Shown piece by piece: positions 6,766-36,109 of a stretch of DNA of 36,109 nt. The notes beneath the pieces are model-generated. The model was not told the DNA's origin. It did not search any database and worked only from the letters and a program-made list of their open reading frames with translations. Source of the DNA: Burkholderiales bacterium (lineage in GTDB: Bacteria > Pseudomonadota > Gammaproteobacteria > Burkholderiales > Burkholderiaceae_C). Position 1 is the stretch's first letter; each line of letters starts with the position of its first letter. The stretch covers positions 1 through 36,109 of the forward strand of contig JAGWUS010000040.1 of assembly GCA_028868305.1 (NCBI GenBank), given 5' to 3'. A program made the position numbers and the translations under genes.

Positions 6766-8529
6766 CTAGAAGGTGGTCCAGTTGCTATCCCCACCCAATG
6801 CGGTTGGTGCCTGAGATTGCGTCAGCCGTTGGGTTAAAGAAGCCGACGACGCTGTAGTACGGGCCGTGGCTATTTTCGGCGGCGCGGGCTTGCGAGTCTG
6901 CAATGGCACCTTCGAAACCGTAGCTGTATTCAAAGGCGCAGCAGGAAGTTTGGGCCGAGTAGAAGACGCTGCGATCGGTTCACTGTCCACAAGTTTGAAT
7001 ACGCTGACAACTTCCACCATATGCCCCGCTTGCTGATTCAGGCTGTCTGCAGCGGCAGCAGCCTCCTCAACCAGGGCAGCGTTCTGCTGGGTGACGTTAT
7101 CGAGCTGCGTGATAGCCTGATTCACCTGCTCAATACCGCTGGTCTGCTCGTGCGCAGAAGCGCTTATTCTCCCAATGAGATCAGCTACACGCTTGACCTG
7201 CGCGACGATGTCATTCATAGATTCACCGGCCTCGCCAACCAGTCGGCTACCCACTTCAATTTTCTCGACACTGGCTCCAATGAGGGCCTTAATCTCTCTG
7301 GCCGCCTCAGCCGACCGTCCCGCCAGACTGCGCACTTCACTGGCAACCACCGCAAATCCACGGCCTTGCTCACCAGCACGTGCTGCTTCCACGGCTGCAT
7401 TGAGTGCAAGGATATTGGTTTGGAATGCAATGCCGTCAATCACACCAATGATGTCGGCAATCTTGCGTGACGACGCAGTAATGTCGTCCATGGTGGCAAC
7501 AACCTGCCCCACCACCACACCGCCTTGCGTCGCTGCCGCGCTGGCCGCGCTGGCCATCTGGTTGGCTTGGCGTGCAGTATCAGCATTGTTCTTGACGGTG
7601 GAACTGAGTTCCTGCATGGACGCAGCAGTTTCTTCCAGGTTGCTGGCCTGCGTTTCGGTCCGTTGGGACAGATCGGTGTTGCCGGCGGAAATTTCGTGGG
7701 CCCCTGTAGAGATATTGTCCGCGCCTTCGCGCACCTCCCCCACCAATCGGGCTAGCCCATTACGCATTTCAAGCAATGCTCCCAGCAACTGCGCTGCCTC
7801 ATCGTTCCCCAGTATGCCAATTTCACCTGTCAGATCTCCGTGCGCCACTCGGTTGGCAGTCACCACGGCTGCCTGCAGCGGCAGCGTAATGCTCAGTGTC
7901 AACCGCCAAGCCATCAGACCGACAAGGGTCAGGACCAGTACGCCTGCCATCGCAATGACTCGAACCGCAACAGTGTTGCTGGCATTTGCTTTGGAAGTGG
8001 CTTCTTCACCCAACTGCTTCTGCACGGCAACAAATCTCTCCAGTTCCATCATGGCTTTGGAAAGCAAAGGATCTATCTTTCCTGTGATAACAACCGCGGC
8101 CTGCTCTGAATTGAACTGTGCTGCCAGATCTACTGCCTCCTTGAAGTGAACTTCCATCAGTCGATCAATTTCCGCCAGGCGATCAAGGATCGCTTTTTCT
8201 TTGCCTCCCAAACCCGAGGAAATCAGCTTTGCCTTGGCTGCAACATACAGGGCAAATTGCTTCTTCGCTTCGGCTTCGTCCCTCTGGACATCTTCCACTT
8301 TGGTCTGCAAGGCCATGTTTCTCACAGATACCGCACTACTCAACAATGCTGCTCGCATGGACTCGGCAATTTCCTGTTGCATACTGGCATGACCCAACGT
8401 ATCCAGCAACGCTGTCCTGCTTGCCGCACTATTCGTCAGCGTTCCAATCAGGATCAGGCATGCCGCCAACAGGATCAGGCCAAAGCCCAGGCCAAGCCGG
8501 CTGCCAATTTTGAGGTCGCGTAAATTCAT
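6766..8529 (-). CDS. Methyl-accepting chemotaxis protein
   Basis: A 587-residue chemoreceptor. A transmembrane helix at about residues 11-31 is followed by a periplasmic four-helix-bundle-type sensor (about 32-190). A second helix (about 190-212) and a HAMP region follow. The cytoplasmic signalling hairpin has the classic tip [37 protein letters not shown]. The C-terminus is NWTTF, a match to the xWxxF pentapeptide that tethers the methyltransferase CheR. GGAG lies seven bases before the ATG. The stop codon TAG is part of the CTAG next to the IS element, so the insertion left the protein unchanged. The Cache-protein gene lies 203 bp upstream on the same strand, which suggests a shared role in ligand sensing. 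The ligand is unknown. Confidence 0.95.
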
Positions 8530-8732
8530 TCAAAATCTCCAGGGCTGACCAGGGTGCCAGCCAAAGCAGCAGCCATTGCGGCAACACCACTCGAAACCAA
8601 CGTGTCGTGGACCCGATGCAAATATAGGCTTACCACCGGTCCAGGGCTCTTGGACTTGACTACGTTTGCGGGGACAAAACTTGCACAAGCCTCCCTGCGC
8701 ATGGACTGTCTTGTGCAACTTACCAGCCTGAA

Positions 8733-9203
8733 TCAGCCTTTGTAAATTCCGCAACCCACCAGGGTATCGCCCAACCGCTCCAGGTACATGGCTTTGCCTT
8801 CTATTTTCTGCGTTACGGGGTTCAGGAACTTGTAGCCTTCCACCCAGCCCTTGCCCTTGGTTTTGGCCAGATCAACGAACATCTGGATCAGGGGTTTCCC
8901 ATCAGGGTCCTTCAAGCCAATCAGGTCTTTACCAACCAGTTTGGGATTGGCTCCCTGCGCCAGATTCTTTCCGTTGAGGTCGTACACGATGATGTACAGA
9001 TCACGGTCTTTAAACGACTTGCCATTGGTAAATTCGTCATATGCTTTTTCGGGACCATTGACCTTGATGTAGGCCACCGCCTTTTTTACCATGGCCTCAG
9101 CCTCAGCAGCCGACCCCTTGTCAGCAGCAAAAACAGCCCCCGACATCAAAAAACATGCCGCAATTGCACCGACGGCAACGCGCAGAAGAGACCTAAATTT
9201 CAT
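8733..9203 (-). CDS. Secreted single-Cache-domain protein
   Basis: The 156-residue product starts with a signal peptide (MKFRSLLRVAVGAIAACFLMSGAVFAAD) and is otherwise one small Cache-like domain, with AMVKKAVAYIKVNG, DLYIIVYDLNGKNLAQGANPKLVGKDL and KGWVEGYKFLNPVTQKIEGKAMYLERLGD. ATG 9203 is chosen because GGAG lies six bases upstream; an in-frame ATG at 9215 would add MESV and has no better site. Free periplasmic Cache proteins next to chemoreceptors are frequent in this bacterial group (recalled). I infer that it binds a small ligand and acts with the chemoreceptor downstream. That link rests on position only. Confidence 0.85.
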   Translation of the reverse strand: MKFRSLLRVAVGAIAACFLMSGAVFAADKGSAAEAEAMVKKAVAYIKVNGPEKAYDEFTNGKSFKDRDLYIIVYDLNGKNLAQGANPKLVGKDLIGLKDPDGKPLIQMFVDLAKTKGKGWVEGYKFLNPVTQKIEGKAMYLERLGDTLVGCGIYKG

Positions 9204-9327
9204 AACCGACTCCATTCTCGAAAGTAGTTTGACCCAAACCCTGCATTGACAGTCTACGCCCGTTTTTCTCCAAACCCCAAGCGATACCCGTATGCAGGAC
9301 TAGTGCAAACACCTATTAAGTATTGGG

Positions 9328-10224
9328 CTATGACGAAGCCAGCGCCGCGCTCGACAGCAGCAACGCAAACCCGAGTTCGAAGCGGAACACGCGGAACAAA
9401 ATGGCGTTGTACGGCAGCCCCGGAGAGCATTCCAAAAAATCGCGGTACAGGCGAAATGCCAAGGGCGCCAGCACACAGGGCAGCCACAGCCAGGGCCCAC
9501 CCATCACAGCCATAAGGCACTGCAATACAAAGGGCAGCGCCAGTAGCGCCCCCAATAACCGGTGCGAAGCGGTCTCGCCATACCGCGCTGCAAACGTAGA
9601 GCGGCCCACCTCCCGGTCGTGTGCCATGTCACGGTGGTTGTTGACTGCCAGTGCAGCCGCGGCAAGGCAGCCCATAGAGATCGCGGCCATCCAGGTCAGC
9701 ACGCCGGTACTGCCGGTGACCAGCCAGTCGGTCCCCAGCACCGCCACCAGACCGAAGTAGACAAAAACGGTGAGCTCTCCCAGTGGCGTATAGGCAATCG
9801 GTTTAGGCCCACCCATGTAAGCCAGCGCCGCCAGCAGCGATGCCGATCCCATCGCCAACACCGGCCAGCCGCGGTTGACGACCAAAGCGAATCCAAGACA
9901 TATCGCAACACCCGACAGCATCACGATCACCCCACGTACCTGCGTAACGGACAGCCAGTGTCTGGCGGTTGCGCGCGGCAGCCCGATGCGGGTCCCGGAG
10001 TCCTCCCCTCCGCGCAGCGTGTAGCCCACGTCGTTCTGCAGATTGGTGATCAGTTGCATCAGCAAAGCCGCAGCCAGAGCCAGCACAGTCGCCAGCCTAT
10101 CCAGGGAGCCGGTGCGCATGAATCCCAATGCCCCACCCACCAACACCGGGCTGATGGCAAGCAGCAGGCTGCGCGGGCGTATCGCCACCCGCCAGGCAGC
10201 AAGAGAATTGGGTTGTATCGGCAT
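9328..10224 (-). CDS. menA: UbiA-family prenyltransferase, MenA-like
   Basis: A polytopic membrane prenyltransferase of about 298 residues. The closest family appears to be MenA, which attaches a polyprenyl chain to 1,4-dihydroxy-2-naphthoate in menaquinone synthesis. The first UbiA motif reads TNLQNDVGYTLRGGED and lacks the usual second Asp of NDxxD. It is followed by SGTRIGLPRA, like the MenA RIGPPRA stretch. The second motif, NNHRDMAHDREVGRSTFAARYG, is MenA-like. ATG 10224 has GGGG upstream; ATG 10239 or 10236 would add MMGQN. aroC lies upstream on the same strand. No other men gene is in view, so the true aromatic substrate is open. Confidence 0.78.
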   Translation of the reverse strand: MPIQPNSLAAWRVAIRPRSLLLAISPVLVGGALGFMRTGSLDRLATVLALAAALLMQLITNLQNDVGYTLRGGEDSGTRIGLPRATARHWLSVTQVRGVIVMLSGVAICLGFALVVNRGWPVLAMGSASLLAALAYMGGPKPIAYTPLGELTVFVYFGLVAVLGTDWLVTGSTGVLTWMAAISMGCLAAAALAVNNHRDMAHDREVGRSTFAARYGETASHRLLGALLALPFVLQCLMAVMGGPWLWLPCVLAPLAFRLYRDFLECSPGLPYNAILFRVFRFELGFALLLSSAALASS

Positions 10225-10359
10225 GTTTTGCCCCATCATGCAAGTTCGGTGCCATGGCGCAGTCGCCACACCTGCAGTGCGGTCAGCAGGCTGATCACCA
10301 CAATGCCCCGCCCCGTGTCCTTGAGCCACTGGGGGACGGTGCGCCGGCCAACGCAGCCT

Positions 10360-11454
10360 CTACAGACTGGCCGGAATGGACTTGAGCGCAGGGTGCACGT
10401 CACCGCACTGCGCCCGGTGGCGCAGCGCATGGTCCATCACCACCAGGGCCAGCATGGCCTCGGCAATCGGCGTGGCACGGATGCCCACACAGGGGTCATG
10501 CCGCCCCTTGGTGATGACCTGGGTGGGCTGGCCCAGCGCGTCGATGGAATCGCGCGGGGTGATGATGGAACTGGTGGGCTTGATGGCCATGCTCACCTCC
10601 AGGTCCTGACCCGTAGTGATGCCACCCAATACGCCACCGGCGTTGTTGCTGGCAAAACCCTGGGGGGTGAGCGAATCGCCATGGGTGGTGCCACGCTGGG
10701 CCACGCTGGCAAAACCGGCACCGATTTCCACGCCCTTGACGGCGTTGATGCCCATCATGGCGTAGGCAATGTCCGCATCCATCTTGTCAAACAACGGCTC
10801 GCCCAGCCCCACGGGCACATTGCTCGCGCTCACGCGGATGCGTGCGCCGCAGGAGTCGCCCGACTTGCGCAGGGCATTCATGTAGTCCTCCAGTGCCTGT
10901 ACATCGGCCACCGGGGCGAAAAACGGGTTGTTGGACACATGCGTCCAGGATTCAAACGCGATGGGCAGTTCACCAATCTGCGTCATGCAACCGCGAAACT
11001 CGGTGCCAAACTTTTCTTTCAGCCACTTCTTGGCCACTGCCCCTGCGGCGACCATGGGCGCCGTCAGTCGCGCACTGGAGCGGCCACCGCCACGCGGGTC
11101 GCGCAGGCCGTACTTCTGGGTGTAGGTGTAGTCGGCGTGGCCCGGGCGGAAGGTATCCAAAATGTTGCCGTAGTCCTTGCTGCGCTGGTCGGTGTTCTGG
11201 ATCAGCAGGGCAATCGGCGTGCCCGTGGTCTTGCCCTGGTACACGCCGCTGAGAATCTGCACCGCATCGGGTTCATTGCGCTGGGTGACAAATTTGGAAG
11301 TGCCGGGGCGGCGGCGATCCAGGTCATGCTGGATATCGGCCTCGCAAAGGTCCATGCCCGGAGGGCAGCCGTCAATCACGCAGCCAATGGCCGGGCCGTG
11401 GGATTCACCAAAGTTGGTGACTGCGAATAGGGTTCCAAAGGTATTGCCGCTCAT
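10360..11454 (-). CDS. aroC: Chorismate synthase
   Basis: This enzyme makes chorismate from 5-enolpyruvylshikimate-3-phosphate, using reduced FMN, at the end of the shikimate pathway. The product has 364 residues, typical length, with the signatures [72 protein letters not shown] and the C-terminal [23 protein letters not shown]. The N-terminus is a clean family match. It is followed, after 120-136 bp, by the menA-like gene on the same strand; both would consume or feed chorismate-derived quinone chemistry. Confidence 0.98.
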
Positions 11455-11482
11455 GACCGCAATTATCCGCGATGGTCACCAG

Positions 11483-11504
11483 AAAAAAGCGGCCCGGAGG
11501 CCGC
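11483..11504 (-). terminator. Rho-independent terminator after the CBS-domain gene
   Basis: On the minus strand a perfect GCGGCC/GGCCGC stem with a TCCG loop (plus positions 11489-11504) is followed by six T (11483-11488). It lies 6 bp after the stop of the CBS gene, so that gene is probably transcribed separately from aroC. Confidence 0.88.
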
Positions 11505-11509
11505 CCGTC

Positions 11510-11974
11510 TCATTCCGCCTTGGCCGCATCAGCCTTGTCTTCTTCCGGCCAGTCACGGATATAGGCCTTGAGCATCTTGTTCTCGAAGTTCTGGCTTTCC
11601 ACCACGGTTTTCGCCACATCATAAAAACTGATGACGCCCATCAGCATGCGGTTGTTGATCACAGGCATGTAACGTGCGTGACGGTCCAGCATCATGCGGC
11701 GCACTTCGTCAATATCGGTTTCCATGGTGCAGATCAGCGGACCATCATCCATGGCCCGGTAAACCGTGGTGGTACCAAACGCACCGCCGTTTTTCACAAC
11801 CGCCTGAATGACTTCGCGGAAAGTCAGCATCCCCACTACCAGCCCATGGGAAATCACCACCAGCGAACCAATATCACGCTCAGCCATCAAGGCGGCAGCG
11901 TCTGCCAGAGAGTCTTCGGGGGTGATGGTGTAAAGCGTGCTGCCTTTAACGCGCAGGATATCGCTGACTTTCAT
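11510..11974 (-). CDS. Two-CBS-domain protein
   Basis: A 154-residue stand-alone CBS pair. The first domain covers about residues 8-60 (TLYTITPEDSLADAAALMAERDIGSLVVISHGLVVGMLTFREVIQAV). The second covers about 75-130 (ICTMETDIDEVRRMMLDRHARYMPVINNRMLMGVISFYDVAKTVV). Such pairs usually sense adenosine nucleotides, but the partner is not apparent. ATG 11974 is preferred because AAGGAAG lies just upstream; an in-frame ATG at 12040 would add a tail unlike the family. The gene is divergent from metY and ends at its own terminator. Confidence 0.9.
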   Translation of the reverse strand: MKVSDILRVKGSTLYTITPEDSLADAAALMAERDIGSLVVISHGLVVGMLTFREVIQAVVKNGGAFGTTTVYRAMDDGPLICTMETDIDEVRRMMLDRHARYMPVINNRMLMGVISFYDVAKTVVESQNFENKMLKAYIRDWPEEDKADAAKAE

Positions 11975-12073
11975 GGTTCTTCCTTGTTCCCGGTGCCACA
12001 TGGGTTGTGACCGTAGTTGAAATATAGCCCACAATCGCACGGTTTATTGCTTGCGTGATCTGGAGATCTCCCT

Positions 12074-13387
12074 ATGCCCGGCTATTCTGACCCCGGCTTC
12101 GACACCCTGGCGTTGCACGCCGGTGCTGCGCCCGACCCCACCACCGGCGCCCGTGCCGTGCCAATTCACTTGACCACTTCGTTTGTCTTTGAGTCGAGTG
12201 AGCACGCGGCCTCGCTGTTCAACCTGGAACGTGCGGGACACGTCTACAGCCGCATCAGCAACCCCACCAATGCGGTGCTGGAGCAGCGCATCAGTGCGCT
12301 GGAAGGCGGCATTGGCGCGATTTCGGTGGCCAGTGGCCAGGCCGCGCTGCACCTGAGCGTGGCCACCCTCATGGGCGCAGGCTCGCACATTGTGGCCAGT
12401 ACCGCGCTGTATGGCGGCTCGCAGAACCTGCTGCACTACACGATGCGCCGCTTTGGCATCGACACCACCTTTGTGCAACCGGGCGACATTGACGGCTGGC
12501 GCGCCGCGGTGCGGCCCAACACCAAGCTGTTTTTTGGCGAGACTGTGGGCAACCCGGGCCTGGATGTGCTGGACATCCCGGTGGTGTCGCAAATCGCCCA
12601 CGAAGCCGGTGTGCCCCTGCTGGTGGACTCCACCCTCACATCCCCCTGGCTGATGAAGCCGCTGGAACTGGGGGCCGATCTGGTCTACCACTCGGCCACC
12701 AAGTTCCTCAGTGGCCACGGCACAGTGATCGGGGGACTGGTGGTTGACGGTGGCAGCTTTGACTGGGCAGCAGCCCATGCCGCCACCGGCAAATTCGCCG
12801 AACTGGCTGCGCCCTACGACGGCTTTCATGCCATGAATTTCAGCGAGGAAAGCACCGTGGGCGCCTTCCTGCTGCGTGCGCGCCGGGAAGGTCTGCGCGA
12901 CTTTGGTGCCTGCATGAGCCCGCACTCCGCCTGGTTGATCCTGCAGGGCATTGAAACCCTGTCGCTGCGCATGGAACGCCACATGCACAACACTGCCAAG
13001 GTGGTGGAGTTTCTGTCCAGCCAGCCGATGGTGGGCCGTGTGGGCCACCCGCTGCTGGGGAGCCATCCCAGCCACGCACTGGCGAGGAAGCTGCTGCCCA
13101 AAGGTGCGGGCTCGGTGTTCAGCTTTGACCTCAAGGGCACGCGCAAGCAGGGCCAGACGTTTGTGGAAACGCTCAAGGTGTTCAGCCACCTGGCCAATGT
13201 GGGCGACTGCCGTAGCCTGGTGATTCACCCGGCCAGTACCACCCACTTCCGCATGGACGACGAGGCACTGGCCAAGGGCGGTATCACCCAAGGCACCATC
13301 CGGCTGTCCATCGGGCTGGAAGACAGCGGCGATCTGATTGAAGACCTCAAGCGTGCGCTCAAGGCCGCTGAAAAGGCAGGTGCATGA
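12074..13387 (+). CDS. metY: O-acetylhomoserine sulfhydrylase-type PLP enzyme
   Basis: A 437-residue Cys/Met metabolism PLP enzyme. The family member of this length, with FDTLALHAGAAPDPTTGARAVPIHLTTSFVF at the N-terminus, usually makes homocysteine from O-acetylhomoserine and sulfide. Visible motifs are YSRISNPTNAVLEQRISALEGG, LVDSTLTSPWLMKPLELGADLVYHSATKFLSGHGTVIGG with the PLP lysine at Lys210, and SLVIHPASTTH near the C-terminus. GGAGAT precedes ATG 12074. Its TGA overlaps the ATG of the next gene (ATGA), so the two are translationally coupled. Cystathionine-type activities of the same fold cannot be excluded. Confidence 0.93.
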   Translation: MPGYSDPGFDTLALHAGAAPDPTTGARAVPIHLTTSFVFESSEHAASLFNLERAGHVYSRISNPTNAVLEQRISALEGGIGAISVASGQAALHLSVATLMGAGSHIVASTALYGGSQNLLHYTMRRFGIDTTFVQPGDIDGWRAAVRPNTKLFFGETVGNPGLDVLDIPVVSQIAHEAGVPLLVDSTLTSPWLMKPLELGADLVYHSATKFLSGHGTVIGGLVVDGGSFDWAAAHAATGKFAELAAPYDGFHAMNFSEESTVGAFLLRARREGLRDFGACMSPHSAWLILQGIETLSLRMERHMHNTAKVVEFLSSQPMVGRVGHPLLGSHPSHALARKLLPKGAGSVFSFDLKGTRKQGQTFVETLKVFSHLANVGDCRSLVIHPASTTHFRMDDEALAKGGITQGTIRLSIGLEDSGDLIEDLKRALKAAEKAGA

Positions 13388-14208
13388 TGGAACTCCTCGT
13401 CAACGGCGCCAAGACCTACTGCTACACCGGCGGTAAGCCCTTCGACGCCGCCAAGCCCACCGTCGTCTTTATCCACGGCGTTCTCAATGACCACAGCGTG
13501 TGGATTCTGCAGACCCGCTACCTGGCCCACCATGGCTTCAACGTGCTCGCGGTGGATCTGCCGGGACATTGCCGCAGCGGCGGTGAGGCCCCCTCCACCG
13601 TAGAAGAAGCCGCTGACTTCATCGCTGCGTTACTGGATGCAGCACGCGTCACCAAAGCCGCACTGGTCGGCCACAGCTGGGGCTCGCTGATTGCACTGGA
13701 AGCGGCTGCGCGCCTGAAAGATCGCATCAGCCACCTGGTGCTGGTGGGTACCGCATTTCCCATGCGGGTGTCGCAAATGCTGCTGGATGCGTCGCAGACC
13801 GACCCGATCAAGGCGCTGACCATGGTCAATGTGTTCTCGCGCAGCACCCTGGCACCGCCCCCCTCCGCCCTGGGCCCGGGCACCTGGGTGTTTGGCAACG
13901 GCATGGCCCTGGGCAAGCGTGTGCTGGCCAGCAATACGGCGGTGAATGTGTTTTACCGCGGCTTCAAGGCCTGCGACAGCTATGCCAATGGCAATACTGC
14001 CATCACGCAGATCACCTGCCCGGTGCTTTTTCTGCTGGGCGCGCAGGACCAGATGACGCAGGCCAAAGCCGCCCAGCCCCTGATTGCTGCGGCCCGGTCC
14101 AGCGGCAAGGCCGTCAGTGTCACGACGGTGCCGGTGGGGCACCACCAGATGAACGAAGCACCTGAGGAAACCCTGTTTGCCATCCGTAGTTTTTTGAACA
14201 AAAGCTGA
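13384..14208 (+). CDS. Alpha/beta-fold hydrolase
   Basis: A 274-residue alpha/beta hydrolase with no signal peptide. The nucleophile elbow is GHSWGS with Ser98, the acid is probably the Asp of LFLLGAQDQMT, and the histidine is in VPVGHHQMNEAPEE. VVFIHGVLNDHSVW supplies the oxyanion region and VLAVDLPGHCRS the following strand. It starts inside the metY stop codon, so it is made together with that enzyme. It might hydrolyse an ester or thioester linked to homoserine metabolism, but the sequence does not name a substrate. Either of the two adjacent ATGs could be used. Confidence 0.9.
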   Translation: MMELLVNGAKTYCYTGGKPFDAAKPTVVFIHGVLNDHSVWILQTRYLAHHGFNVLAVDLPGHCRSGGEAPSTVEEAADFIAALLDAARVTKAALVGHSWGSLIALEAAARLKDRISHLVLVGTAFPMRVSQMLLDASQTDPIKALTMVNVFSRSTLAPPPSALGPGTWVFGNGMALGKRVLASNTAVNVFYRGFKACDSYANGNTAITQITCPVLFLLGAQDQMTQAKAAQPLIAAARSSGKAVSVTTVPVGHHQMNEAPEETLFAIRSFLNKS

Positions 14209-14223
14209 TTGGGGTCAGGTGCA

Positions 14224-14316
14224 TTTCCAGGTGCTAACGATTTCGGAAAATTCCTGGCCAGCGAATTGCCACGCCGGGCCGAGGTAGTCACGCAGTCGGA
14301 CGCTAAACTGGACTAA
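14224..14316 (+). pseudogene. C-terminal remnant of a TctC/Bug-type solute receptor
   Basis: Frame 14233-14316 reads ANDFGKFLASELPRRAEVV, then TQSDAKLD and TAA. This is the characteristic last helix and KLD-type end of tripartite tricarboxylate (Bug) receptors, which from memory end like FAQFLxxEIPRWAEVVRxSGAKLD. No start and no upstream body exist: the alpha/beta hydrolase ends 15 bp earlier. I read it as a deletion remnant. It is short, so the assignment rests on pattern memory. Confidence 0.55.
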
Positions 14317-14368
14317 ACGCCCGAATTGTGCACAATCGCACGCACAAGCACACCACGAGGAGACACCC

Positions 14369-14707
14369 ATGCATACCGCCATCGAGACCCGTCAATCCGT
14401 TGACCCACGCAGTTTCTCCCGCTTCGCGGACTTCTATCCCTTTTATCTGACCGAGCACAGCAACCTCACCTGCCGGCGCCTGCACTTTCTGGGTTCCACC
14501 CTGAGCCTGGTGTGTCTGGCCATGCTGTTCGCCACTGGCAAACCGCAGTATTTCCTGTATGGCCTACTGAGCGGCTACGGATGCGCGTGGATCGGGCACT
14601 TTGGCTTTGAAAAGAACAAACCCGCCTCTTTCAAACGACCGCTTTACAGTTTCATGGGTGACTGGGTGATGTACAAGGACATCTGGACCGGTAAGGTCAA
14701 GATATAA
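14369..14707 (+). CDS. Mpo1-like / DUF962 small membrane protein
   Basis: A 112-residue protein with two hydrophobic segments (about residues 45-62 and 66-82). The DUF962 pattern is visible: SFSRFADFYPFYLTEHSNLTCRRLHFLGST, then WIGHFGFEKNKPASFKRPLYSFMGDWVMY. The yeast relative Mpo1 is an Fe(II)-dependent dioxygenase acting on 2-hydroxy fatty acids, and the conserved His residues (EHSN, LHFLG, GHFGFEKNKP) are consistent with that metal site. GAGGAG lies upstream of ATG 14369. It stands alone, convergent with the YihY gene only 3 bp away. Activity in bacteria is an extrapolation. Confidence 0.87.
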   Translation: MHTAIETRQSVDPRSFSRFADFYPFYLTEHSNLTCRRLHFLGSTLSLVCLAMLFATGKPQYFLYGLLSGYGCAWIGHFGFEKNKPASFKRPLYSFMGDWVMYKDIWTGKVKI

Positions 14708-14710
14708 ATT

Positions 14711-15928
14711 TCATAGCACGCTGTGCAGGCTGCATGCGGGCCAGCGATCGTTTTTCCATAAATTTTCAGTCACTGCTGCGCGCGGAAGCAGCAGCGCCTG
14801 CACCAACGGTTCCAGCACGGTGTGCTGTGGATCCACCAGCAGAACAAAGCGGGCTTCATTGCCCCTCCCCTGGGTTTCACTCAGTTGGCCAATCCAGTCC
14901 ATGCCGACCAGCGCTTCCAGGATGGGTTCCAGCCGCTGAGAATCGGTTTGCAGGCTCGCACACATCTCGCTGATGGTCCTGCCTTTTTCGCTGTGCCCTC
15001 GCACGGCCTCAAGTTGCTGCAGCACTTCCAGCGCCAACTGAAACTGCCACCCCGGTCCACCACGACGCCTGGGCAACCCGGCAAGCAGACTAGGCACATA
15101 GGCGGTCAGTGCAGCACCCAGCAGCACGATGATCCAGGCCAGATAAATCCACACCAGCAGGATCGGCACGGTGGCAAATGCGCCATACACTACCGAATAG
15201 GTAGGCACCTTGCTCAGGTACACGGCCAGCAATTTCTTGGCCACCTCCATGCAGCCCGATACAAACAGGCCACCCATCCAGGCATGGCCCCATCCCACGT
15301 GGGTGTTGGGAACATAGTGAAACATGGCCGCCATGCCGCCAGCCACCAGCAGGAACTGCAGCACCTCCAGAATCAGCGTGACCCCGCCAGGCATGCCTCC
15401 CACCAGTCCACTGGACGCCGACAGCGCATAGGAGGTGATGCTTATGCTGGCCCCCAACACCAAGGGCCCCAGCGTGATGGCCGCCCAGTACAGCAATACC
15501 CGCTGCCCAAATGGACGTGGGGTGCGCACGCGCCATATGTTGTTGAGGGTGCGGTCAATGGTGAAAACCAATGCCAGCGCGGTGCCAAGAAGCACCGCCA
15601 GACCAGCCGCACCCAGCTTGCTGGCCTTGCCGGCAAACTGGCTCAGGGAACCCAGCACCTGCCGGGCAATGTAGTCCGGCACCAAACTCGCAATCAGCCA
15701 CTTCTGCAACACATCCTGAAACTTGGCAAACATGGGAAACGCAGTGAACACCGCCAGTGCCACCGTGATAAACGGAACCAGGGCAATGGTGGTGGTAAAG
15801 GTCAGGCTGCTGGCTGTCAGACCCAGCCGGTCTTCACGAAAACGTTCGCGCAGTGTGACGATGGCGTCCAGCCACGGCAACCGTGCCACGTCTTGCAGCC
15901 AGGAACGGAATTTTTCTATGAATTGCAT
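14711..15928 (-). CDS. YihY family inner membrane protein
   Basis: A 405-residue YihY/BrkB-type membrane protein. The N-terminal signature DRLGLTASSLTFTTTIALVPFITVALAVF is followed by about six transmembrane segments up to residue 275, including the family motif YSVVYGAFATVPILLVWIYLAWIIVLLGA. The C-terminal 130 residues are soluble and look like a small winged-helix-type domain (EKGRTISEMCASLQTDSQRLEPILEALVGMDWIGQL). The family has no agreed biochemical role; older annotation as ribonuclease BN is considered wrong for this group. The gene is complete and lies 43 bp after the HD-GYP-like gene on the same strand. Confidence 0.92.
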   Translation of the reverse strand: MQFIEKFRSWLQDVARLPWLDAIVTLRERFREDRLGLTASSLTFTTTIALVPFITVALAVFTAFPMFAKFQDVLQKWLIASLVPDYIARQVLGSLSQFAGKASKLGAAGLAVLLGTALALVFTIDRTLNNIWRVRTPRPFGQRVLLYWAAITLGPLVLGASISITSYALSASSGLVGGMPGGVTLILEVLQFLLVAGGMAAMFHYVPNTHVGWGHAWMGGLFVSGCMEVAKKLLAVYLSKVPTYSVVYGAFATVPILLVWIYLAWIIVLLGAALTAYVPSLLAGLPRRRGGPGWQFQLALEVLQQLEAVRGHSEKGRTISEMCASLQTDSQRLEPILEALVGMDWIGQLSETQGRGNEARFVLLVDPQHTVLEPLVQALLLPRAAVTENLWKNDRWPACSLHSVL

Positions 15929-15971
15929 CCCGGGATGATGCCATCAACACGGGCCGGGATACTTGTCCCTT

Positions 15972-17120
15972 TCAAGCCGTAGCTTGCGGCACCTCGATAA
16001 ATCCAAAAAGCCGCTCGGGAGCCAGGCGCTTGAGTAGCGCCTTGTCGCTGACGGCACCCACGATACCGTGCTCCTTCTGCCCCGTGTCAAACCGCACCGT
16101 GTTGACAACCGGGTGCCCGTGGGCATCGGTGATGGCAGCCACGATGGGGGCAGTAGCCTTGCTGGTCCGCTGCACCACCAGCGCCAGGTGGCCCGACGCC
16201 AGCTTCACATAGTCGCCCGGCGGGTACAGGCCAAACTGTTTGACAACGGCCGTGGACAAGGGGCCACCCGCGTCTTCGGTGTACAGCTGGCGCACTGCGA
16301 CTTGCGGAGTCAGCGCTTCGCGGATCGCGCGGGGACTGATTTTTGCCATGAACACATCGGTCACACGCAGTGCGACGGCCATTTCACCGACGTCGTGCAT
16401 CCCTGTGGGGTAGCCCTTGCCATCGGCCCGCTCGTGGTGCTGCGAAATCGCACTAAGCCAATCTTCATCTTGTATGCCGGCTTTGCGTAGCATCGCCACC
16501 GATTCAGTCGGGTGATGGCGAATCTGTTCGTATTGCTTCTCCTTCATGGGAACGTCCTGCCCGGCCATTTTCCCCTGCAATTCCAGAATCGAAACGTTCA
16601 TAGTCAGAGCCGCCTTCACCAGACTCATGGTGCGGGACTGCGGCCACGCCAGCTGGCGGGACAACAGCACACACAGTACGGCCGTATGCACGCTGTGCGA
16701 GTAGCCATACCAGTAGTGCTGGGCGTTATCCTGCCGCACGCATCGGTACAGCGCTATGTCTGGATTGAGATCCAGAAGTTTGATGATGTTGTGCGCATAC
16801 TGCTCGATCTGGTCGGCGAAATCCGCCTCCTCCATACGCGCCAGAAGGCTTTGCAGGTCCGCCGCGGTTTTGTCCCACAAGCCAAACAAATTGGGGGGCA
16901 CCTTGACGGTACTGGCTTGCGGCGCATCTTGCGACACCGCGCTGGCGCGAACTTCTTCCACATCGACAAATGCACCACGCTGCAACAACTGATCCAGCTG
17001 GTGTTCACTGTGAATGACGTGCCCCTTCGAGAGGAGCAATTTGCCCGCCTCGTCGCGCACATTCCAGGGTAGCGGGCATCCGAGCTCCACCTTGGATTTA
17101 GGCAATCGCAGCACTTTCAA
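15972..17120 (-). CDS. Degenerate HD-GYP domain protein
   Basis: A 382-residue protein. The N-terminus (CPLPWNVRDEAGKLLLSKGHVIHSEHQLDQLLQRGAFVD) is a small domain often placed before HD-GYP modules. The HD-GYP region is recognisable at about 135-260, with HHERADGKGYP intact (His228, His229, GYP 236-238). The defining His-Asp pair is lost: the expected AALLHDIGK reads AALTMNVSI, with Met174-Asn175. Known HD-GYP proteins degrade cyclic di-GMP with metal held by that pair, so this one is probably inactive and may bind the nucleotide or a partner. The start is TTG at 17120 with AAGGGG upstream; no ATG fits the N-terminal domain. Confidence 0.88.
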   Translation of the reverse strand: MKVLRLPKSKVELGCPLPWNVRDEAGKLLLSKGHVIHSEHQLDQLLQRGAFVDVEEVRASAVSQDAPQASTVKVPPNLFGLWDKTAADLQSLLARMEEADFADQIEQYAHNIIKLLDLNPDIALYRCVRQDNAQHYWYGYSHSVHTAVLCVLLSRQLAWPQSRTMSLVKAALTMNVSILELQGKMAGQDVPMKEKQYEQIRHHPTESVAMLRKAGIQDEDWLSAISQHHERADGKGYPTGMHDVGEMAVALRVTDVFMAKISPRAIREALTPQVAVRQLYTEDAGGPLSTAVVKQFGLYPPGDYVKLASGHLALVVQRTSKATAPIVAAITDAHGHPVVNTVRFDTGQKEHGIVGAVSDKALLKRLAPERLFGFIEVPQATA

Positions 17121-17212
17121 TTTGGACCCCTTGGAACCTCAAAACGGAACAAGCCCATACATTAAACACCAGCTAGCAGCCAAGAGATAATGCCGGGCAC
17201 TACTGCGCAGCC

Positions 17213-17620
17213 ATGAACACTACATCTTCTCCTTTTGATTCCATCGCCATGACCCGCTGGCTCGCCGTAGGAAGCGTCCTCGGACTGATCGCGCTGGGAC
17301 TGGCCTGGGAACTGTTTCTGGCCCCGCTACGCCCCGGCGGCTCCTGGCTGGTGCTCAAGGTGCTGCCTCTGTGCATTCCGCTGCCCGGCCTGCTCAAGAA
17401 CCGCATGTACACCTACCGCTGGGTCAGCCTGGTGGTGTGGCTGTATTTCACCGAAGGCGTGGTGCGGGCCTGGAGCGACCGGGCACCTGGCAACATCCTG
17501 GCCATGCTGGAACTGGTGCTGTGCCTGACGCTCTTTACCGCCTGCACGCTGCATGTGCGCTTGCGCCAGCGCCATGCCAAAGCTGCTGGTCTGACTGAAC
17601 CCGAAACGAGCACTCCATGA
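17213..17620 (+). CDS. DUF2069 membrane protein
   Basis: A 135-residue protein with about three to four hydrophobic helices. The DUF2069 hallmarks are LAWELFLAPLRPGGSWLVLKVLPLCIPLPGLLKNRMYTYRWVSLVVWLYFTEGVVRAWSD. Function is not known. ATG 17213 lacks a strong ribosome site; ATG 17249 (MTRWLAVGS) is an alternative. Its stop overlaps the start of the FAD oxidoreductase (ATGA at 17617-17620), so the two are coupled. It is divergent from the HD-GYP-like gene across 92 bp. Confidence 0.9.
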   Translation: MNTTSSPFDSIAMTRWLAVGSVLGLIALGLAWELFLAPLRPGGSWLVLKVLPLCIPLPGLLKNRMYTYRWVSLVVWLYFTEGVVRAWSDRAPGNILAMLELVLCLTLFTACTLHVRLRQRHAKAAGLTEPETSTP

Positions 17621-19038
17621 CTGCCCACCATCCCCTGCTTTCCGCCTTGCGCGCCATCGTCGGCGATGCCAATGTCCTGACGACGGGCGATCTCAGTGCC
17701 TGGGAACTCGACTGGCGCAAGCGCGAGCGCGGCTACGCCCTGGCCGTGGTGCGCCCCGGCTCGACCAATGAAGTGGCGCAGGTGGTGAAAGCCTGTGCCG
17801 CGGCCGGTGTCAGCATGGTTCCGCAAGGGGGCAACACCGGCATGGTTGTGGGCTCCACACCCGATGCCAGTGGCACCCAGGTGGTGCTGAGCCTCACGCG
17901 CATGAACCGGGTCCGCAAGCTCGACGCTGCCAACCTCACTATCACCGTGGACGCAGGTTGTGTATTGCAAAGCGTGCAGGAAGCCTGCGAAGCACAGGGC
18001 TTCCTGTTTCCCCTGAGTCTCGCCGCCGAGGGCAGTTGCACCATTGGCGGCAACCTGGGCACCAATGCCGGGGGTACCCAGGTGGTGCGCTATGGCAACA
18101 CGCGTGAACTATGTCTGGGTCTGGAAGTGGTGACCGCGCAGGGCGAAGTCTGGAATGGCCTGACCGGTCTGCGCAAAGACAACACCGGCTACGACCTGCG
18201 CCACCTGTTTATTGGCTCGGAAGGCACCCTGGGTGTCATCACCGGCGCCATCATGAAGCTCTACCCGATGCCGGCTGCACAACTCACCGCATTCGCTGCC
18301 GTACCTTCACTGGATGACGCAGTGGCACTACTCGGGCTGGCGCACAAGCACCTGCATGCGGGCCTGACCGGGTTCGAGGTGATGGGTCAGTTCGCGTTGA
18401 GCCTGGTGGTCAAACACTACCCCCAGCAACGCGTCCCGTTCTGGGACCAATCGCCCTATTGCGTAGTGCTGGAAGCCTCCGACAGTGAATCCGAAGCGCA
18501 CGCGCGTGAGGTCTTCGAGCGCTTGCTCGAAGCGGCCATGGAGCAGGGTTGCGTCACCGATGCCGTGGTCGCCGAAAACATGGCGCAGGCGAAGGCCCTG
18601 TGGCATATCCGCGAGAGCATTCCGCTGGCCCAGGCGCAGGAAGGCCTGAACATCAAGCACGACATCTCGATTGCGGTATCCAGCATTCCGGATTTCGTGC
18701 GCCAGACCGATGCCGCGCTGGAAGCCGCCTTTCCCGGCGCACGGCTGGTCAATTACGGGCACCTGGGTGACGGCAACCTGCACTACAACGTGCAGGCCCC
18801 TGACGGTAACGACGCCGAGGCGTTTCTGCGCGACCAGGAGAAACCCATCAATGCCCTGGTGTACGACGCAGTCGACCGCTTTGGCGGTTCCATTTCCGCA
18901 GAGCACGGCATTGGCAGCCTCAAGCGCGACAAACTCGTGGAGCACAAATCACCGGTAGCGCTGGACCTGATGCGTTCCATCAAGCAGGCGCTGGACCCGC
19001 ACAATCTGATGAACCCGGGGCGGATGCTGCGGCGATAA
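17617..19038 (+). CDS. FAD-linked 2-hydroxyacid dehydrogenase-type oxidoreductase
   Basis: A 473-residue flavoprotein of the GlcD/D-2-hydroxyglutarate dehydrogenase family. The FAD-binding half has [31 protein letters not shown], and [44 protein letters not shown] ends the domain. The substrate half has [14 protein letters not shown] and [14 protein letters not shown], which hold the metal and active-site histidines of this family, and ends [12 protein letters not shown]. Likely substrates are D-2-hydroxyglutarate, D-lactate or glycolate; the sequence alone does not separate them. It overlaps DUF2069 by 4 bp and precedes thyA by 8 bp, so the genes may share a transcript. Confidence 0.9.
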
Positions 19039-19046
19039 TTGCGCGT

Positions 19047-19892
19047 ATGACTTCCGCCACTTCTCTGCACCCCGTGCGTTCCCAATACGAAGACTTCATG
19101 CGCCATGTGTACACCACGGGTGTGCACAAGGCTGACCGTACCGGTACCGGCACCCGCAGTGTGTTTGGCTACCAGATGCGCTTTGACCTGAATGAAGGCT
19201 TTCCGCTGGTGACTACCAAGAAGGTGCACCTGCGCTCCATCATCCAGGAACTGCTGTGGTTCCTGACCGGGTCGAGCAACAACAACTGGCTCAAGGAACG
19301 CGGCGTCTCGATCTGGGATGAATGGGCGCGTGACGATGGGGACCTGGGCCCGGTGTACGGTGTCCAGTGGCGCAGCTGGCCCACGCCCGATGGCGGCCAT
19401 ATCGACCAGATTGCCGATGTCATCAAAACCCTCAAAACCAACCCCGACAGCCGCCGCATCATCGTGAGCGCCTGGAACGTTGCCGAGCTGAACAAGATGG
19501 CGCTGATGCCCTGCCATGCCTTCTTCCAGTTTTATGTGGCGCCCAGCGAAACACCTGGCGGCAAAGGGCGCCTGAGTTGCCAGCTGTACCAGCGCAGCGC
19601 CGACATCTTCTTGGGTGTGCCCTTCAACATTGCGTCCTACGCCCTGCTCACCCACATGGTCGCGCAGCAGTGCGATCTGGACGTGGGCGATTTCATCTGG
19701 ACCGGCGGTGATTGCCACATCTACAGCAACCACCACGAACAGGTGGAACTGCAGCTGGGCCGTGCGCCCAAGGCCTACCCCACACTGCACATCAAGCGTC
19801 GCCCCGACTCGATCTTCGACTACCAGTACGAGGACTTTGAGGTGCTGGGCTACGAATGCCACCCCGCCATCAAGGCGCCAGTGGCGGTGTAG
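19047..19892 (+). CDS. thyA: Thymidylate synthase
   Basis: Thymidylate synthase methylates dUMP with methylene-tetrahydrofolate and yields dTMP and dihydrofolate. The product has 281 residues. Clear motifs are [41 protein letters not shown], the dUMP-attacking cysteine in [14 protein letters not shown] (Cys156), [26 protein letters not shown] and [16 protein letters not shown]. It is followed by folA after 8 bp, which recycles the dihydrofolate it makes. The gene starts 8 bp after the FAD oxidoreductase. Confidence 0.98.
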
Positions 19893-19900
19893 GGTGCAGC

Positions 19901-20395
19901 ATGCAGTTGCACATCATCTTCGCCAAGGCCCGCAACGGCGTCATCGGCAAGGACAATGCCCTGCCCTGGCACCTGCCGGAAGACTTGGCACACTTCAAGC
20001 GCACCACCATGGGCTGCCCGGTGATCATGGGGCGCAAGACCTGGGACTCGCTGCCACCCAAATTCCGCCCCCTGCCGGGACGCTTGAATGTGGTCGTCAC
20101 GCGCCAGGCAATATGGCATGAAGACGGTGTTCAGCCCTCACGGGATTTGCACGAGGCGCTACAAATTTGTGAGCAATTCCCGGATGTCTGGGTCATTGGC
20201 GGCGCCCAGCTCTATGCGCTGGCCGAACCCCTGGCCAGCACAGCCGTCGTCACCGAAATTGAAAAAGACTTTGAAGGTGATGCGTTTGCCCCCACGTTGG
20301 GCGCAGCGTGGCAGGAAACCGCCCGTGAGCGCCACATTGCCGCCAGTGGACTGCCCTTCAGTTTTGTAACCTATACCCGCACTTCAGGAGTTTGA
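19901..20395 (+). CDS. folA: Dihydrofolate reductase
   Basis: Reduces dihydrofolate to tetrahydrofolate with NADPH. The product has 164 residues, usual length. ATG 19901 gives the exact family N-terminus MQLHIIFAKARNGVIGKDNALPWHLPEDLAHFK, where Asp28 is the catalytic acid; an in-frame ATG at 19856 lies inside thyA and is not needed. MGRKTWDSLP, RPLPGRLNVVVTR and VWVIGGAQLYALA follow in order. It directly follows thyA, the source of its substrate, and precedes the DUF4337 gene by 3 bp. Confidence 0.97.
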   Translation: MQLHIIFAKARNGVIGKDNALPWHLPEDLAHFKRTTMGCPVIMGRKTWDSLPPKFRPLPGRLNVVVTRQAIWHEDGVQPSRDLHEALQICEQFPDVWVIGGAQLYALAEPLASTAVVTEIEKDFEGDAFAPTLGAAWQETARERHIAASGLPFSFVTYTRTSGV

Positions 20396-35082: not shown

Positions 35083-35108
35083 TGGTGGAGCTGGGGGGAT
35101 TTGAACCC
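35083..35108 (-). ncRNA. ssrA: 3'-terminal fragment of tmRNA (ssrA), probable att site
   Basis: On the minus strand the 26 bases read GGGTTCAAATCCCC, CCCAGCTCCACCA. That is a T loop (TTCAAAT), the 3' half of the T stem and an acceptor end AGCTCCACCA, the standard tmRNA 3' end. Immediately upstream (35109 on) the sequence becomes ...GTGATAA, which cannot pair with the T stem and is unlike tmRNA. Thus only the 3' end is left. The fragment is the usual crossover core of integrative elements that use ssrA. Confidence 0.8.
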
Positions 35109-35251
35109 TTATCACAGGATTTTTACCCTAAAAATCTCAATGTGAGTGAGTGAATAAGAGTGAATTATTAATATGCACGTTTGTGCATTATTAATTTACT
35201 CCGCCCGCGATCGACATGCACCCTCAAATACCTCATTCGCCATCAATCGAC
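35109..35251. other. AT-rich island edge without a gene
   Basis: The sequence has no convincing reading frame. It holds near repeats of GTGAGTGAGTGAAT/AAGAGTGAATT (about 35142-35168) and an imperfect hairpin at about 35164-35201 built on ATTAATATGCAC and GTGCATTATTAAT. These may be integrase arm sites or a terminator for the gene ending at 35252. No integrase is present. Confidence 0.45.
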
Positions 35252-35716
35252 TCAACTCAGGCAGTGAGAAACGCCGTTATGGCTGTACAGCACTTTCCAG
35301 TCGACTAAGTCCAACACATCGCCTGATTCATGCAGTGGTACAGGATAAAGGTCTCCCGTAGCTGTGACTATCAAATGGCTAAGTGCTGACAGGTGGTTGG
35401 GAGATCTCATCAGCATGCATGCGACCCTCCGAGATGCCTCGCTGGACCCGCAAGATCTCTCAAGCGTCAGAAAGTCAATCGCGTCCAGAAAGTACCCATT
35501 CGGAGTCGCAAGTTGCTCAAAGTGTTTTGGGTCCGCGATCAGTTGAACTTGTGCATCGCGTAAGTTGGAAGGGCTGCGGAAAGTGACCAAAAACAAGACG
35601 CCCTCTGTCACGGCTGAAGATGAAACGCCATGTGGCGAATTTGCTTGATCTGCGCCGATAACCGCTCCATCAATTTCGGAACAGCTTCCGGCTGGTGGGG
35701 TAGTGAGTTGCTGCAT
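35252..35716 (-). CDS. Unknown protein in genomic island
   Basis: A 154-residue soluble protein that I do not recognise. The first 30 residues are Ser/Pro/Gly-rich and probably disordered. The rest looks globular: EGVLFLVTFRSPSNLRDAQVQLIADPKHFEQLA, FLDAIDFLTLERSCGSSEASRRVACMLM, SALSHLIVTATGDLYPVPL and VLDLVDWKVLY. No catalytic motif, membrane helix or signal peptide stands out. ATG 35716 has GGAG six bases upstream; a TTG at 35728 would use that GGAG as codons. It is divergent from the XRE regulator, with a perfect dyad between them, so it is likely to be controlled by that regulator. Confidence 0.7.
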   Translation of the reverse strand: MQQLTTPPAGSCSEIDGAVIGADQANSPHGVSSSAVTEGVLFLVTFRSPSNLRDAQVQLIADPKHFEQLATPNGYFLDAIDFLTLERSCGSSEASRRVACMLMRSPNHLSALSHLIVTATGDLYPVPLHESGDVLDLVDWKVLYSHNGVSHCLS

Positions 35717-35741
35717 CCTTTTCTCCAATTAGAAAATAAAC

Positions 35742-35777
35742 AATGAAGACTATAGTCGGTGGACTATAGTCTTCATT
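35742..35777. promoter_or_regulatory. C-box-like tandem operator (perfect 36-bp inverted repeat)
   Basis: Bases 35742-35757 and 35762-35777 are exact reverse complements around GGTG. Each arm contains GACTATAGTC, itself a perfect 10-bp palindrome (35748-35757 and 35762-35771, 14 bp centre to centre). Operators of restriction-modification controller proteins (C.PvuII, C.Esp1396I type) have two GACT...AGTC boxes with a GTG spacer, from memory. It lies 26 bp from the unknown gene and 5 or 17 bp from the regulator start. Confidence 0.82.
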
Positions 35778-35794
35778 TTTGGATGATCGTGCTC

Positions 35795-36109
35795 ATGGTA
35801 AGAGCGCGAAATGAGGCCGTCATAGACGCCTTTGCAAAAACATTGAAAGAGGCCCGCAAGCAGCGAGGTATGACCCAGGAGGATCTGGCCGACCAAGCCT
35901 CACTGGACCGTACATTTATTGGCATGCTTGAAACAGGTAAGCGTCAACCAACACTAAGTGTGATTTGTGCGCTCGCGTATGCACTGCATGAAACACCATC
36001 GCAATTGTTGAGTAAAGCTGTGAAGGTTGCAGAGATGACAGTACCCAATCAGCAGTTGGTGCATGAACTCACTGCAGGTGACAGGCGCTCAAAAAAGTCC
36101 GCTTCTGAC
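35795..36109 (+). CDS. XRE-family HTH regulator, controller-protein-like, 3' end outside window
   Basis: The frame runs open to the right edge (at least 105 residues). The HTH is canonical: FAKTLKEARKQRGMTQEDLADQASLDRTFIGMLETGKRQPTLSVICALAYALHETPSQLL. MTQEDLA, SLDRTFI and ETGKRQP match the recognition region of controller proteins of restriction-modification systems. Those are usually about 80 residues, whereas this one continues with a polar tail (EMTVPNQQLVHELTAGDRRSKKSASD). ATG 35795 or in-frame ATG 35783 could be the start. With the operator ending at 35777, ATG 35783 would mean a nearly leaderless mRNA, as in several C-protein genes. It is divergent from the unknown gene. Confidence 0.88.
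   Translation, partial: MVRARNEAVIDAFAKTLKEARKQRGMTQEDLADQASLDRTFIGMLETGKRQPTLSVICALAYALHETPSQLLSKAVKVAEMTVPNQQLVHELTAGDRRSKKSASD

Follow-up and report, generated by a model that had tools for sequence, protein, structure and literature searches.

A C-box-type operator between a controller-like XRE gene and a divergent small-protein gene at the end of a Burkholderiales contig

We report a 36-bp dyad near the end of a 36,109-nucleotide stretch of Burkholderiales DNA (hereafter the window), situated between the start of a gene for a short XRE-type (HTH) regulator and the start of a divergent gene for a 154-residue protein. Its sequence and its geometry support the assignment of this dyad as a C-box-type operator. 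We think it rather probable that the whole is a mobile two-gene module, in which a regulator of the C-protein type is paired with a divergent small protein and the dyad acts as the double operator of the regulator. The operator, the kinship of the regulator, the order of the genes and the recurrence of their pairing can all be read directly from the DNA. It is chiefly for the timing of restriction-modification (R-M) that C proteins are known, and a canonical C-box stands here with a cargo other than R-M. Among the literature matches listed there was no paper on such a pair of regulator and small protein.

The dyad, its two genes and their setting

The dyad reads AATGAAGACTATAGTC-GGTG-GACTATAGTCTTCATT, its 16-nt arms being perfectly complementary and its central GGTG not symmetric (Table 1). 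The two C-boxes within it are identical and perfectly symmetric, with centres 14 bp apart; those of C.Esp1396I lie 15 bp apart. No longer perfect inverted repeat exists in the window at loops of up to 20; in 20 first-order Markov simulations the best repeat per simulation had arms of 8-13. The paired pattern GACTATAGTC-N4-GACTATAGTC, with up to 3 mismatches allowed, was found at one place in the window as against none in 100 shuffles, and at one place in the genome (94 contigs, 3,477,417 bases), where the reversed control pattern gave none. In the excerpt of the published account that we cite, the C-protein operator has GACT..AGTC twice, a central GT and an outer TG..CA within about 35 bp (PMC3115060), and this layout, positioned before a regulator gene, is present in the window.

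Table 1. Features of the window and of comparison loci (positions refer to the window unless a locus is named)
Feature	Position	Strand	Remarks
26-bp exact copy of tmRNA gene 3' end	35083..35108	+	probable attachment-site copy, left edge of integrated island
154-aa gene	35252..35716	-	ORF; divergent from HTH gene; ATG 35716, alternative TTG 35728 giving 158 aa
36-bp dyad	35742..35777	.	two perfect 16-nt arms around GGTG; outer TG..CA
C-box 1, GACTATAGTC	35748..35757	.	on 154-aa gene side
Candidate -10 of 154-aa gene, TATAGT	35749-35754	-	inside C-box 1; consensus match only
Candidate -35 of HTH gene, TGGACT	35760-35765	+	overlaps C-box 2; by eye
C-box 2, GACTATAGTC	35762..35771	.	on HTH gene side
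Poor candidate -35 of 154-aa gene, ATGAAG	35771-35776	-	consensus match only
Candidate weak -10 of HTH gene, GATGAT	35782..35787	+	16 nt after TGGACT, 7 nt before ATG 35795; by eye
XRE/HTH regulator gene, 105 codons	35795..36109	+	ATG 35795; open at contig end; HTH_3 6e-13 (Pfam)
L045 (G268)	8278-10407		C-controlled R-M system: two boxes with 2 mismatches, BamHI-type endonuclease, N6_N4 methylase
L017	798-3478		C-controlled R-M system: one perfect box 5' of HTH gene, second degenerate; C5 methylase, SacI-type endonuclease
L122 (G199 C1)	1501-1524 and 1549-2880		operator GACTATAGGC-CGTG-GACTATAGGC; C-like HTH gene directly before 5'-nucleotidase gene (PF06189, 1.8e-119)
L044 (G297)	8177-9900		operator GACTATTGTC-GGTG-GACTATAGTC between C-like HTH gene and divergent 277-aa ORF, then 147-aa ORF

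Among solved chains the best matches of the regulator are C.BclI (4.3e-08) and C.AhdI (2.6e-07), and R-M controller chains of the 3clc kind align with it without gaps at 1.6e-06 to 6.7e-06; an immunity repressor scores 1.7e-06 among them, so this test of kinship is not exclusive to C proteins. The comparison with solved structures thus supports C proteins as the closest relatives, with other XRE proteins nearly as good. Scores in PADLOC lie close together (HTH_VI 3.5e-12, control protein 5.2e-12, capH 8.9e-12) and hence do not single out C proteins, and the best NCBIfam model, which remained below its threshold, is that of a type II antitoxin family (44.9 bits vs a cut-off of 71.65). According to the excerpt cited, T36 and R46 of C.Esp1396I contact the C and the G in the half-site GTC, T36A abolishing binding and R46A weakening it some 30-fold (PMC4041747). 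The ungapped alignment places these residues at T40 and R50 of the regulator, if chain numbers run 3 ahead of those in the paper, an offset derived from the spacing T36-Y37...R46. All 12 aligned proteins keep T40 and R50 unchanged; two further positions differ from C.Esp1396I, Y37 corresponding to F41 and S52 to V56. A collection of 5.8 billion proteins yielded 12 matches to the regulator, itself included, and plasmids yielded 193 records, the closest of which are all less than 60% identical and 3 of which cover 80% of the query. On the readable side the divergent gene has no methylase match, and for want of that linkage the regulator is not filed as an R-M C protein.

The 154-residue protein matches nothing in Pfam, PADLOC or NCBIfam, and hence no methyltransferase model. 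Two relatives were found, 62% and 68% identical, the second covering 72% of the query, and none in plasmids, phages, genome contigs or viral contigs; among 111 genomes the protein is present in its own genome alone. Two AlphaFold models (mean pLDDT 43.5 and 37.6) were too poor for use. A preliminary description of this DNA had pointed to a dyad with two palindromes around GGTG between an HTH gene and a divergent gene, had likened it to a C-box operator next to a controller-like gene, and had held the 154-residue protein not to be a methyltransferase. The dyad is confirmed, with perfect arms and a single occurrence in the genome, its C-box type is borne out by sequence and geometry, the structural matches agree with the likeness of the HTH protein to controllers to the extent given above, and the view of the cargo is upheld by all three model collections.

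The window is a whole contig (C90), so the HTH reading frame has no stop here and the DNA 3' of it is not readable; in an attempt at extension, the last 18 bases were found nowhere except at the contig end. The 26-bp repeat near this end is identical to positions 666-691 of contig C11 (G000), the 3' end of an intact ssrA (C11:666-1042), and this ssrA adjoins a tyrosine-recombinase gene that is cut by the contig start and whose N-terminal part has Arm-DNA-bind_3 and Phage_int_M. The GC content changes from 0.599 (1-35082) to 0.483 (35109-36109). The end of C90 would fit the far end of an island targeted to ssrA, and the module probably sits at the edge of that island. Two results speak against this. 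Four relatives carrying the 230-aa neighbour gene had no tmRNA and no 26-bp repeat in flanks of up to 1.5 kb; the empty site not having been found in these four, the boundary of the island rests on the repeat, the recombinase and the GC content. Of twelve tyrosine-recombinase matches in the same genome, judged by eye, none resembled the absent remainder of the gene next to ssrA, so the interior of the island is not linked or not assembled.

Recurrence of the boxes and of the pairing

Among 15 loci of regulator relatives in named genomes, the only close full-length one is that of Rhodoferax sp. U2-2l (L015; 66%), which is also the closest relative whose flanking DNA is available on both sides. 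Its boxes, GACTATAGTC-GGTT-GACTATAGTC, lie 47 and 33 bases before the ATG, as they do in the window, and are kept without the outer TGAA/TTCA arms (7/24 mismatches to the plasmid reference given below), and the divergent place is taken by another protein of about 152 aa, beginning MF (the MF family below). Nine ORFs within 10 kb on each side, the small protein included, were tested with Pfam and none is a methylase or restriction endonuclease. Behind the Rhodoferax regulator gene come about 300 bp in which no ORF of at least 100 aa is listed, so the regulator probably does not head a cargo operon. After this module (11432-19966) we also observed a defence-like row comprising an MkoA-like helicase, a 406-aa protein without clear match, a PLD protein, a CARF-AAA RtcR-like regulator and a WYL protein.

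A scan of 299 family genomes found the paired box, with up to 2 mismatches, in 4 of them and the control pattern in one listed genome (G202). These four operator places are this window, L045, L044 and L122; one of them (L045) is an R-M system, and at the other three the genes tested are not R-M. Boxes are also found in complete R-M systems, at L045 and at L017, so genuine C genes do use this type of box. L122 is, by its operator and gene content, another C-type switch with a cargo outside R-M; judged by eye, the 277-aa ORF at L044 resembles a lipoprotein, and Pfam gives no match for it. In the box survey, which leaves out seven minus-strand loci (L007, L010, L012 and L013 among them), many of the other HTH relatives lack such a box. 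In Paenibacillus taihuensis (L016, 5879-10298) a C-like HTH gene with single GACTATAGTC boxes adjoins a HamA gene (PF08878) together with an ORF judged helicase-like by eye, a Hachiman-like locus.

The Rhodoferax MF protein has five matches in the protein collection, itself included, and no fitting Pfam or PHROGs family (single-member matches, best E 0.015 and 0.011). Its relatives appear on 15 plasmid records at E <=0.01 (11 Pseudomonas, 2 Polaromonas, 1 Comamonadaceae, 1 Comamonas), 10 of which are typed conjugative. Thirteen of these plasmid loci were opened, and an adjacent divergent HTH gene is present at 12, annotated at 11 and recognized by sequence at L071, where it is annotated as hypothetical; Polaromonas JS666 (L072) has no divergent HTH gene beside its MF gene. 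Of 399 family genomes, 27 contain a match to a profile built from 11 MF proteins. A locus was available for 30 of the 36 listed matches, 29 of them with a usable ORF, and a divergent HTH gene lies within 600 bp at 20 of these 29 and is absent at 9, by an HTH profile that was built from relatives of the window's regulator and from the plasmid modules and so leans towards such HTHs. A class-wide search for MF proteins, run without a positive control, gave 0 of 274 genomes, the window's own and at least two of the same family being included; by the tool's own warning, an empty answer of this sort shows nothing.

Several further observations were made around these modules. MF matches occur in 4, 3 and 3 copies in G337, G404 and G256, several with a divergent HTH gene of LHSRHN type. 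In a genome of the same genus (L115 in G225, 2326-3754), multiubiquitin and DUF6791-ThiF genes lie some 3 kb from an MF module. Two ORFs near modules look alike by eye, one at L113 (17722-18096, 124 aa) and one in Rhodoferax (L015, 10639-10968, 109 aa).

In a tree of 47 HTH proteins the MF partners are spread over no fewer than four groups: a 15-row group (SSRTYVS and like), L070/L097/L101, L075/L087/L091/L094, and, through Rhodoferax, the group of the window. Stars mark the group of 15 rows, that of four rows and the window group of nine, and the three-row group lies inside a starred group of five rows. Of the 44 inner branches of this tree 13 carry a star and 17 are open; according to a warning from the program, long branches meet among the MF groups. 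As the tree stands, the regulators have been exchanged among different HTH clades.

The window dyad closely resembles the operators of one of these clades. Read as TGAAGACTATAG-N8-CTATAGTCTTCA, the window dyad has 2 of 24 mismatches to TGAACACTATAG-N9-CTATAGTGTTCA of plasmid pXWY (L082), with a spacer of 8, and thus combines the C-box with the outer arms of the module operator. The reference half-sites were taken from L082, whose own zero mismatches are by construction. Thirteen of the 15 SSRTYVS-type modules lie within 0-7 of 24 mismatches of this reference, all with a spacer of 9; the remaining two, L074 and L081, have 11. The best result in 3200 mononucleotide shuffles was 6 mismatches, with the 1% level at 8, which makes the weakest two among the 13 operators (6 and 7) marginal.

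Whether the 154-residue protein itself belongs with the MF family is a matter of weaker signals. Its residues 37-143 match an MF profile of 44 rows (one short ORF, L102, having been dropped by the length filter) over 106 columns, with an hhalign score of 24.1, a P of 0.0012 and a probability of 18.8%, and the smaller profile of 11 rows gives a probability of 0.9%. When the 44 MF proteins were used as master one by one, the match always started at residue 36-39 of the window protein (P 0.0002 to 0.06). A score of 24.1 was reached by 0 of 100 and 1 of 800 column shuffles, and the reversed sequence scored 12.6. A profile of the 154-aa family did not match the Rhodoferax protein taken alone. These results are suggestive of a weak similarity to the MF family; homology is not established.

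Promoters, timing and competing explanations

The sigma-70 consensus is matched at 8 of 12 positions on both sides of the window dyad, and a consensus scan of the window reported no promoter at its threshold, the GATGAT candidate included. In Rhodoferax the small gene has TTGGCA-17-TATAGT, a 10/12 match with its -10 inside the box. At the -35 place of the HTH gene we find by eye TTGACT in L015 and TGGACT in L044, and as counterparts of the -10 GAAGAT and GATAGT, respectively; the candidate -10 in the window may give a leaderless HTH mRNA. Across 18 modules, a comparison that leaves out L074, the best sigma-70 match on the small-gene side is the higher one in 9, equal in 5 (the window included) and the lower one in 4.

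In EcoRV a high-affinity C site activates the weak c-res promoter while it overlaps and represses the strong methyltransferase promoter, and in Kpn2I the methyltransferase gene is divergent from the C gene and has a strong promoter repressed by C, as described in the excerpt cited (PMC6237814). Because the cargo here holds the early position of the methyltransferase, and because the Rhodoferax promoter matches at 10 of 12 positions, early expression followed by shut-off is a better guess than delay; the layout hints that the cargo is expressed early and later silenced. How the regulator binds, which promoters are used, in what order the genes act and what the small protein does are inferred as follows. 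In a naive cell the promoter of the small gene, with its -10 within the operator, would be free and the protein made at once. The regulator would meanwhile accumulate from its own weak leaderless promoter until it bound both boxes cooperatively as two dimers, which would silence the small gene and hold the regulator at its own level. The small protein might serve the entry or establishment of the element, a guess we would make at well short of even confidence. Since the pair is carried by plasmids, of which many are conjugative, and probably also by islands, our first guess for the cargo is establishment or counter-defence; control of the element and a toxin-antitoxin function come after it.

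The preliminary description had gone further, proposing a delayed-expression defence module whose switch would also govern whatever follows the regulator. Its C-box operator, C-like HTH protein and cargo other than a methyltransferase stand. The delayed defence module finds no support: the cargo occupies the early position of the Kpn2I and EcoRV methyltransferases, and none of the results points to a defence role for the small protein. Control of genes after the regulator is probably to be given up as well, given the stretch without a listed ORF behind the Rhodoferax gene.

Several other explanations deserve consideration. For instance, this might be the start of an ordinary type II R-M system, with the endonuclease and methyltransferase genes beyond the contig end and the 154-aa ORF a bystander. 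A C-box with a C-like HTH gene is typical of such systems, two boxed HTH relatives (L045 and L017) do belong to complete ones, and the 3' side of the HTH gene is beyond the reach of this contig. We nevertheless regard this as very unlikely, as the Rhodoferax locus has neither methylase nor endonuclease among its nine tested ORFs and again has an ORF of about 152 aa in the divergent place; with no R-M genes on the readable side, a C-box operator plus a C-like regulator is probably not an ordinary R-M system. Alternatively, the two might form a toxin-antitoxin-like or addiction pair, in which the free small protein does harm and the HTH protein counters it, either through transcription or directly. 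The genes are divergent rather than joined in one operon, no toxin family is matched and the HTH protein falls below the cut-off of the antitoxin model, all of which make this distinctly unlikely, even though that model is the best one below threshold and a small two-gene unit on mobile DNA, with its regulator exchanged among HTH clades, would suit such a pair.

Lysogeny-type control of an integrative element, with the HTH protein as master repressor and the small protein as a Cro-, excision- or transfer-control partner, would agree with the location of the module at the island end opposite the recombinase, and for several of the plasmid modules site-specific recombinase genes are found no more than a few kb away. 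We consider it unlikely, since 50,697 phage records contain no relative of either small protein, scans of viral contigs with both small-protein families and with the exact operator pattern gave none, and a scan with the HTH alignment gave 4 distant HTH genes only (36-38%). Likewise, when neighbours were compared, as the preliminary description had recommended, those of the regulator relatives were not those of a phage repressor, and an ordinary phage repressor was rejected on the lack of small-protein relatives in phage records or viral contigs. The dyad might finally be an intrinsic terminator and nothing else: on the minus strand a 16-bp stem precedes a T-rich stretch, at L015 likewise, and a scan found 1 terminator vs 0.3 expected in shuffles. 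Since the dyad lies between two divergent starts and repeats a known protein-binding box, and since L015 keeps the boxes while its outer bases differ, we rejected the terminator-only reading and find it scarcely credible.

Returning to a mobile module of C-type regulator and divergent small protein, we may speculate that the C-protein circuit is a general timer of mobile DNA, under which a protein for establishment or counter-defence would be made briefly when the DNA enters and be silenced afterwards, R-M systems and MF-type modules being two users of one exchangeable switch; this is possible but doubtful at present. If the reading of an early burst holds, a small protein family on Pseudomonas and Comamonadaceae plasmids gains a testable role soon after DNA entry.

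Comparison with known systems

The regulator resembles the GACT/AGTC class of C proteins (the type of C.Esp1396I, C.AhdI, C.BclI and C.PvuII) in its small XRE fold, as predicted from sequence, and in its box-reading Thr and Arg, and the DNA before it resembles theirs in the double box, the central GT, the outer TG..CA and the placing of the operator directly before the regulator gene. Unlike in that class, no R-M partner is seen, and the boxes of the window are identical and perfectly symmetric. With Kpn2I and EcoRV, as far as the excerpt cited describes them, the likeness is that C represses the strong promoter of a partner gene, divergence across a short shared region being a feature of Kpn2I (PMC6237814); in the window, by contrast, the partner is a small protein and no endonuclease gene is known to follow. 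Although the recognition stretch is LDRTFIG in the window and SSRTYVS in one HTH clade of the MF modules, the spacer is 8 rather than 9 and the window's small protein is weakly similar to theirs, the MF-family modules of Pseudomonas and Comamonadaceae plasmids and of family genomes share with the window a divergent short HTH gene and a gene of about 150 aa across a dyad, and in that one HTH clade the dyad is nearly the same.
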